Shown: positions 29,421 through 30,730 of the stretch, piece by piece
How the letters are laid out: each line of letters begins with the position of its first letter
How positions within the stretch are numbered: position 1 is the stretch's first letter
Source of the DNA: Clostridia bacterium
GTDB taxonomy: Bacteria; Bacillota; Clostridia; UMGS1883
DNA: 37,517 nt
Assembly: GCA_017411435.1 (NCBI GenBank)
Contig: JAFQQD010000009.1
Location: forward strand, 1-37,517
Direction: 5' to 3'
Made by a program: the position numbers and the translations under genes
The notes under the pieces: model-generated
Seen by the model: the letters and a program-made list of their open reading frames with translations, nothing else
Told to the model about the DNA's origin: nothing
The model's database searches: none

Positions 29421-29449
29421 TTGAAATGGAAATAAAAATATGCTATTAT
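29421..29449 (+). promoter_or_regulatory. Promoter of the CofE-like gene
   Basis: TTGAAA at 29421-29426, a 17-base spacer and TATTAT at 29444-29449. The transcript should start near 29456, giving a leader of about 75 bases that is mostly the pseudoknot element. Confidence 0.7.
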
Positions 29450-29470
29450 GATTAGTGGTCAATAATATTT

Positions 29471-29517
29471 CTATCAGTCCGCGATAGATAACAGCATACA
29501 TTTTGCGGACAGAAAGG
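29471..29517 (+). promoter_or_regulatory. Predicted H-type pseudoknot leader next to the ribosome binding site
   Basis: CTATC (29471-29475) pairs with GATAG (29483-29487). The loop between them contains GTCCGC (29477-29482), which pairs with GCGGAC at 29505-29510. Stem 1 has five pairs, stem 2 six pairs; loop 1 is a single A, there is no base between the stems, and loop 3 is 17 A/T-rich bases. These are classical H-type pseudoknot dimensions. AGAAAGG, the only Shine-Dalgarno candidate, begins one base after stem 2. This geometry suits a small translational riboswitch or protein-binding operator. It is a prediction from one sequence. Confidence 0.5.
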
Positions 29518-29530
29518 CTATGACAGTAGT

Positions 29531-30730
29531 ATGGCAAACACAGAAAGAAAAGTCGGCACAGTATCTCGCGGTATCCGTTGCCCTATTATTCGTGAAGGGG
29601 ACGACCTTGCCGCTATCGTAACACAAAGCGTTCTTGAAGCAGCCGAGAGTGAGGGGTTTTCTCTCCGCGAACGCGATGTTATTTCTATAACAGAATCAAT
29701 CGTTGCCCGTGCGCAGGGTAACTATGCTTCAATTGACGATATTGCCCAGGATGTTAAAACTAAACTTGGTGGAGAAACAGTTGGTGTAATTTTCCCCATA
29801 CTTTCCAGAAACCGTTTTGCAATCTGCCTTAAGGGCATTGCAAAGGGATGCAAGAAAGTAGTTCTTATGCTCAGCTATCCTTCTGACGAGGTTGGTAACG
29901 AACTTGTTTCACTCGACAAGATTGATGAGGCAGGAATTAATCCCTATTCAGATGTGCTTTCACTTGAAGAATACAGAAAATATTTTGGCGAAAATAAGCA
30001 CGAATTTACAGGTATCGACTATGTTGATTATTACGCAAATGTTGTTCGTGAATGTGGTGCAGAGGTTGAGATTGTATTTGCAAATCAGGCAAAAACTATC
30101 CTTAACTATACAGACTGCGTAATTAACTGTGACATACATTCCAGAAAGAGAACAAAGAGAATATTAAATGCCGCAGGTGCAAAAATTGTATGCGGACTTG
30201 ATGAGCTTATGAATGCCCCTGTAAATGGCAGCGGTTATAACGAAAAGTATGGTCTTCTCGGTTCAAACAAATCTACTGAGGACAAGATTAAACTTTTCCC
30301 GAAAGAGTGTAAAGAACTTGTACTTGACATTCAGGAAAGAGTGTTCAAGGCAACAGGCAAGCATGTTGAAGTAATGGTTTACGGCGACGGCGCATTCAAG
30401 GATCCTCAAGGTAAAATCTGGGAGCTTGCAGACCCCGTTGTTTCACCTGCATTTACTGATGGCCTTATCGGCACTCCCAATGAACTTAAACTTAAGTATC
30501 TTGCAGATAACGATTTTGCGAATCTTTCAGGCGAAGAACTTAAAAAGGCTATCTCGGACAGTATTCGTTCCAAAGACGAAAACCTTGTTGGTAACATGGC
30601 TTCGCAGGGAACAACCCCCAGACAGCTTACTGACCTTATTGGTTCTCTTTGCGACCTTACAAGCGGAAGCGGAGACAAGGGAACTCCCGTTGTTCTTGTT
30701 CAGGGTTACTTCGATAACTATACAAACTAA
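29531..30730 (+). CDS. CofE-like (coenzyme F420-0:L-glutamate ligase family) protein, long form
   Basis: A 399-residue protein related to the F420 gamma-glutamyl ligase family: RGIRCPIIREGDDLAAIVTQ at the start, RDVISITESIVARAQGNYAS, then KNMASQ-like regions such as VGNMASQGTTPRQLTDLIGS near the end. In archaea and actinobacteria such enzymes add glutamate to coenzyme F420 with GTP. No other F420 synthesis gene is visible here, and Clostridia generally lack F420, so it may act on another acid substrate. The ATG at 29531 is 13 bases from AGAAAGG, a long spacing, and it is preceded by a predicted pseudoknot. Monocistronic, with a strong terminator. Confidence 0.75.
   Translation: MANTERKVGTVSRGIRCPIIREGDDLAAIVTQSVLEAAESEGFSLRERDVISITESIVARAQGNYASIDDIAQDVKTKLGGETVGVIFPILSRNRFAICLKGIAKGCKKVVLMLSYPSDEVGNELVSLDKIDEAGINPYSDVLSLEEYRKYFGENKHEFTGIDYVDYYANVVRECGAEVEIVFANQAKTILNYTDCVINCDIHSRKRTKRILNAAGAKIVCGLDELMNAPVNGSGYNEKYGLLGSNKSTEDKIKLFPKECKELVLDIQERVFKATGKHVEVMVYGDGAFKDPQGKIWELADPVVSPAFTDGLIGTPNELKLKYLADNDFANLSGEELKKAISDSIRSKDENLVGNMASQGTTPRQLTDLIGSLCDLTSGSGDKGTPVVLVQGYFDNYTN

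Follow-up and report, generated by a model that had tools for sequence, protein, structure and literature searches.

The pseudoknot in the E. coli rpsO leader lies, like the element described here, at a ribosome-binding site, where it meets the 30S subunit (PMC3858243). It serves one gene, is bound by that gene's own product S15 and includes coding sequence, whereas the Clostridial element stands before many genes with its knot wholly upstream of the Shine-Dalgarno sequence. Gene 32 of phages T4 and RB69 likewise carries an H-type knot in its mRNA leader (PMC535899), on a single gene that is repressed by its own product, in contrast to the many genes found here. The preQ1-I and SAM-II riboswitches are compact H-type knots that touch the Shine-Dalgarno sequence and control translation (PMC10907184). 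They combine a conserved ligand pocket with pathway-specific genes, whereas the Clostridial element has variable loops and unrelated genes. The S1-dependent tisB standby pseudoknot, which aids 30S recruitment, is placed some 100 nt ahead of a sequestered site (PMC7708055), while the Clostridial knot abuts the Shine-Dalgarno sequence. STAXI, another pseudoknot-based orphan RNA near several kinds of gene, occurs as tandem repeats near DNA-handling genes (PMC2864571), unlike the single knots reported here, which keep a constant position at the ribosome-binding sites of very diverse genes. The rpsO, gene 32, preQ1-I, SAM-II and tisB knots each serve one gene or pathway, and none is dispersed and gene-independent. 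Known knots at ribosome-binding sites come with a ligand or protein of their own. How low-GC Gram-positive ribosomes translate structured mRNAs has been named as an open question (PMC3858243).

The pseudoknot before the CofE-like gene

The element was met in the leader of a CofE-like gene within the window, i.e. the whole 37,517-nt stretch of Clostridia bacterium DNA that was analysed. The features of this leader are as follows.

29421-29449, + strand: sigma-A-type promoter TTGAAA-17-TATTAT with TG ahead of the second hexamer, read from the sequence
29458-29461, + strand: possible weak 5' strand GUCA of a P3-like stem (P3 is described below), predicted in a nested fold to pair with UGAC at 29521-29524
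29468-29472, + strand: alternative anti-Shine-Dalgarno strand UUUCU, which can pair with AGAAA at 29511-29515 atop stem 2 in the nested minimum-energy fold
29471-29475, + strand: stem 1 5' strand CUAUC, read from the sequence and backed by covariation in 98 copies
29476, + strand: loop 1, one base (A), not conserved among family copies
29477-29482, + strand: stem 2 5' strand GUCCGC, from the sequence, the sister alignment and stem 2 covariation
29483-29487, + strand: stem 1 3' strand GAUAG; the family consensus GAUAAG(G) is Shine-Dalgarno-like
29488-29504, + strand: loop 3, 17 bases, A/U-rich, of varying length and sequence within the family
29505-29510, + strand: stem 2 3' strand GCGGAC, adjoining the Shine-Dalgarno box with a gap of zero
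29511-29517, + strand: Shine-Dalgarno box AGAAAGG, complementary to CCUUUCU at the 16S rRNA 3' end
29518-29522, + strand: conserved spacer CUAUG, consensus from 160 copies
29531-30730, + strand: CofE-like gene downstream of the pseudoknot, 399 aa, Pfam F420_ligase

These coordinates bear out the interlocked stems, the one-base loop 1, the lack of an inter-stem base and the 17-base loop 3 that had been noticed from the letters of the window (the sequence-only reading), and a promoter was found upstream as proposed, with a TG extension. The single base that this reading placed between stem 2 and AGAAAGG does not exist, as position 29510 is followed directly by 29511. T29470 and A29488 form a sixth pair of stem 1. 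The promoter layout, read by eye, is alike in two sister species (L002, L003), and the product of the CofE-like gene does not reach the NCBIfam thresholds for true CofE.

The geometry by itself is unremarkable and proves nothing. Within 896 kb of related DNA we counted 14 strict perfect pseudoknots of 5+6 bp (L1=1, L2=0), which is roughly one every 64 kb, and 103 loose ones of similar geometry. Since the pairs are kept in sister species and covary in 98 copies (see below), the pseudoknot in the window is nevertheless significant, and a chance origin was ruled out.

The knot precedes the CofE-like gene in four of the seven genomes of the genus. All 11 pairs are present in the three sister species, and over the four leaders 44 of 44 pair cells are retained, with one compensatory and two wobble (G-U) changes. 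Before the CofE-like gene of the other three genus genomes and of the remaining orthologues examined, including 78 of 80 named loci, no knot was found; these leaders hold unrelated hairpins or none. Clostridia bacterium RGIG4160 and Oscillospiraceae bacterium SIG445 are the named close relatives. Among CofE-like leaders the knot is limited to four genus members, and orthologous leaders were dropped as a covariation set. Since the element is independent of downstream-gene orthology, the loss of the stems from orthologous leaders would be misleading if taken as a refutation.

Some of these leaders have features of their own. In the sister leaders L002, L003 and L004 an outer stem, UGUGC/GCACA or UGCGC/GCGCA, lengthens stem 1, which is not the case in the window. 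The CofE-like leader of Clostridia bacterium RGIG9437 (L040, about 2095-2212) runs from a promoter to a terminator-like hairpin with a T run and holds a possible antiterminator, CGAGgACGUUCC/GGAACGUgCUCG, making it a candidate attenuator. In two further species (L042 and L071) a different covarying two-part hairpin, GUGGGY/GCCYGC within GAGRC/GUCUC, precedes the CofE-like gene. In a related genus (L005 and L006) the inverted repeats TTTTGaCAGA/TCTGcCAAAA and TTTTAgCAGA/TCTGtTAAAA directly follow the CofE-like promoter.

With Rfam 15 (4227 models) at gathering thresholds no hit was obtained in the window and none at the leader across 60 orthologue loci, and a permissive search gave no relevant hit among 20 other copies. 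This agrees with the earlier remark that the knot resembles neither the preQ1 nor the SAM-II consensus. A literature search of limited scope found no description of the motif, and an earlier description is unlikely.

A dispersed family at Clostridial ribosome-binding sites

Two covariance models were used to look for further copies. R1 was built from the four genus leaders with stem 2 only. In whole genomes it detected strong matches in distant families, up to 11 per genome, most of which also form stem 1, although this stem is absent from the model. R2 was built with stem 1 only on 23 copies and is the source of the census. Among the 391 Clostridia genomes sampled, 53 gave a match at E<=1e-5, representing 36 of 223 genera, and a single genome held up to 23 copies at E<=0.1; these census counts are lower bounds because the large genome sets were scored under stricter filters. 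In a phylum sample of 398 genomes, the genome of the window alone passes 1e-5, the next best match having 3.7e-5. The R2 score of the window copy is 54.4 bits (E=3e-16), this copy being itself one of the 23 sequences of the model. As in the family at large, [AG]GAAAGG directly adjoins its stem 2, and the start codon is no more than about 25 bases further on.

Both stems covary. Among the 23 aligned copies, double-sided changes occur at nine of 13 pairs (26 cells, compared to 8.5 in shuffles). In 98 newly fetched copies they occur at all 13 pairs, with 169 compensatory cells compared to 46 in shuffles, and 94.5% of cells are paired compared to 33-49% in slid controls. For stem 2 we counted 40 double-changed cells compared to 8.0, with 98.4% paired, and since this stem is absent from R2 its covariation is independent of that model. 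Because the copies are phylogenetically non-independent, the shuffle counts are not strict probabilities.

With a permissive parser 159 of 160 copies read as a pseudoknot, with a stem 1 of about 5-9 bp, a stem 2 of about 6-8 bp and an A/U-rich loop 3 of 8-42 nt and variable sequence. In 132 copies loop 1 consists of one base, which may be any base; the gene 32 pseudoknot has a similarly short loop 1. The gap between stem 2 and the Shine-Dalgarno box is zero in 149 of the 159 parsed copies. The [AG]GAAAGG box is near invariant, CUAUG (or CUAUGg) follows in most copies, and the start codon, assigned from reading frames, comes some 10-15 bases on. In two class members the 3' end of 16S rRNA was read as CCUCCUUUCU; the box is fully complementary to it, to the last base. 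Conserved unpaired bases are confined to the box and the spacer.

About 14 copies carry a longer cassette upstream of the element, consisting of a hairpin AACGUG..CACGUU, in several cases flanked by GGAGG..CCUCC, and a second hairpin (loci L123, L140, L142, L143, L148, L169, L179, L192, L255, L264, L265, L268 and L281). A covarying stem of the cassette, P3 (AAUUUCCAU/AUGGAAAUU and variants), closes over the spacer between the Shine-Dalgarno box and the start codon.

The downstream genes form a broad, mostly housekeeping set that includes groEL, fba, topA, murA, guaA, serS, upp, rpoZ, fabF and pgk; 147 of them fall into 137 Pfam families, the largest with four members. At least three copies are present in the genome of the window, before the CofE-like gene, groEL and fba. 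Gain or loss is evident between sister species, with fba carrying the element in five of seven. Many copies lie between the cistrons of operons, several of them in short gaps, of 7 nt (fabG-fabF), 9 nt (dnaJ-prmA), 11 nt (dprA-topA), 16 nt (rlmN-phosphatase) and 18 nt (gmk-rpoZ). A DNA operator was not favoured, given the covariation of both interlocked helices and a distance of 7-20 nt between the upstream gene and many of the copies.

Viral genes carry the motif as well. At L361 (genome G337, contig C9, 10115-18329) four copies occur within 8 kb of prophage genes, namely those for the portal, an unknown protein, the distal tail and a further unknown protein. Searches of phage and plasmid collections by blastn gave no convincing match, and two tight patterns found nothing in viral contigs. 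With a looser pattern just one viral contig was obtained, in which the complete element, P3 included, precedes a probable phage structural gene (L363, 6899-6970, IMGVR_UViG_3300031555_010414).

Taken comparatively, the copies make up one dispersed family across the class Clostridia, many gut members included, with a common fold, a common position and unrelated genes. The element appears to be a general module of translation control rather than a sensor for the CofE-like gene, to which the sequence-only reading had tied it: the orthologues of most relatives are without the knot, and unrelated genes carry it. One architecture on unrelated housekeeping and prophage genes in at least 36 genera represents a testable candidate for a general RNA initiation module, which may also be usable as a ready-made expression part in gut Clostridia.

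Candidate mechanism and competing explanations

With moderate confidence we propose that the element is a bistable translation-initiation module acting on whichever gene follows. Stem 2 would be common to both states. In the ON state, the 5' strand of stem 1 (consensus CCUUAUC) would pair with the Shine-Dalgarno-like GAUAAGG and leave the real Shine-Dalgarno sequence free; in the OFF state, the same strand would pair with the real Shine-Dalgarno sequence, extend stem 2 into a single hairpin and hide the site. As a trigger, a general factor or upstream translation would be likelier than a pathway metabolite.

We infer the switching and the direction of control from nested folds. In these the accessibility of the Shine-Dalgarno box is 0.33, lower than the 0.51 of shuffled leaders, its partner is the 5' strand of stem 1, with at least 5 bp in 57% of cases compared to 23% of shuffles, and the alternative pairing brings a median gain of -5.9 kcal/mol compared to -3.3 kcal/mol for shuffled 5' sides. 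This combination favours a bistable module whose open state is the pseudoknot. The stem 1 5' consensus GCCUUaUC complements GAAAGGC save for one bulge, and because stem 2 abuts the Shine-Dalgarno box, the alternative pairing lengthens it into one hairpin, the form that the window leader takes in its minimum-energy nested fold. The median stacking energy of stem 1 is -11.1 kcal/mol, a value that does not include pseudoknot loop penalties, so that it is uncertain which state is the more stable. Since the Shine-Dalgarno box is near invariant, covariation cannot test the alternative pairing. Several observations speak against a switch: the anti-Shine-Dalgarno complementarity is only moderately above shuffles, in phylogenetically non-independent copies, and in part a product of the stem 1 consensus, it is absent from some copies (e.g. 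L150) and short in the window, and the bistable model does not explain why P3 covers the spacer in a subset. Tentatively, the bistable module could be extended to a gene-independent, transferable switch with its own anti-Shine-Dalgarno strand and Shine-Dalgarno mimic, through which one general signal would exert global control of initiation in Clostridia, on dozens of unrelated mRNAs and with prophages making use of it too.

The main rival is a constitutive initiation module without switching, in which the knot keeps the Shine-Dalgarno box exposed and docks on the 30S platform; judged from geometry, the helix of AGAAAGG and the 16S tail, whose end falls precisely at this point, could form an end-to-end stack with stem 2. 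We consider this possible but rather doubtful. In its favour are the zero gap, the full complementarity of the box to the 16S 3' end, the broad and mostly housekeeping gene set, the copies before prophage structural genes and the loops without a conserved pocket; as a precedent, the 30S platform is where the rpsO pseudoknot of E. coli docks (PMC3858243). It is contradicted by the complementarity of the stem 1 5' strand to the Shine-Dalgarno box beyond expectation and the P3 subset that covers the spacer, and the stacking is a purely geometrical argument.

The position fixed beside the Shine-Dalgarno box and the many unrelated genes per genome would also suit a site through which a general trans-acting or ribosomal protein controls many mRNAs, by repression or activation, as a large translational regulon, as S15 on rpsO (PMC3858243) and T4 gp32 (PMC535899) bind single leaders. 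We regard this as unlikely, given that outside the box and spacer no conserved unpaired bases are available for sequence-specific recognition. An autoregulatory leader of the rpsO type, placed before the gene for its own binding protein, does not fit the mutually unrelated downstream genes. More improbable still is an element of mRNA stability or processing, for instance a knot halting a 5'-to-3' exonuclease ahead of the ribosome-binding site. A compact knot immediately upstream of this site and intercistronic copies that could protect processed 5' ends are in line with such a role, but the Shine-Dalgarno box and CUAUG are conserved although a block to decay does not need them, and a conserved cleavage site was not seen.

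The textbook small-pseudoknot riboswitch of the sequence-only reading holds in one part, since selection maintains a true, compact H-type pseudoknot at the ribosome-binding site, comparable to preQ1-I and SAM-II (PMC10907184), and no Rfam family claims it. The metabolite part is unsupported. The 160 copies show variable loops 1 and 3 in place of conserved pocket nucleotides, which makes a ligand pocket unlikely, and the 147 genes in 137 Pfam families do not form one pathway. A metabolite riboswitch for the CofE-like gene is very improbable, as groEL and fba share the element with this gene in the window's genome and many orthologues are without it; a CofE-specific ligand is largely refuted, while a global metabolite is possible. 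Least probable is a dispersed mobile repeat that spreads into intergenic gaps without host function: L142 and L179, which precede different genes in a single genome, are near-identical copies, loop 3 included, and the longer cassette of two upstream hairpins and P3 recurs, but the placement against the Shine-Dalgarno box is near invariant, and compensatory changes in both stems together with old, diverged copies imply selection.
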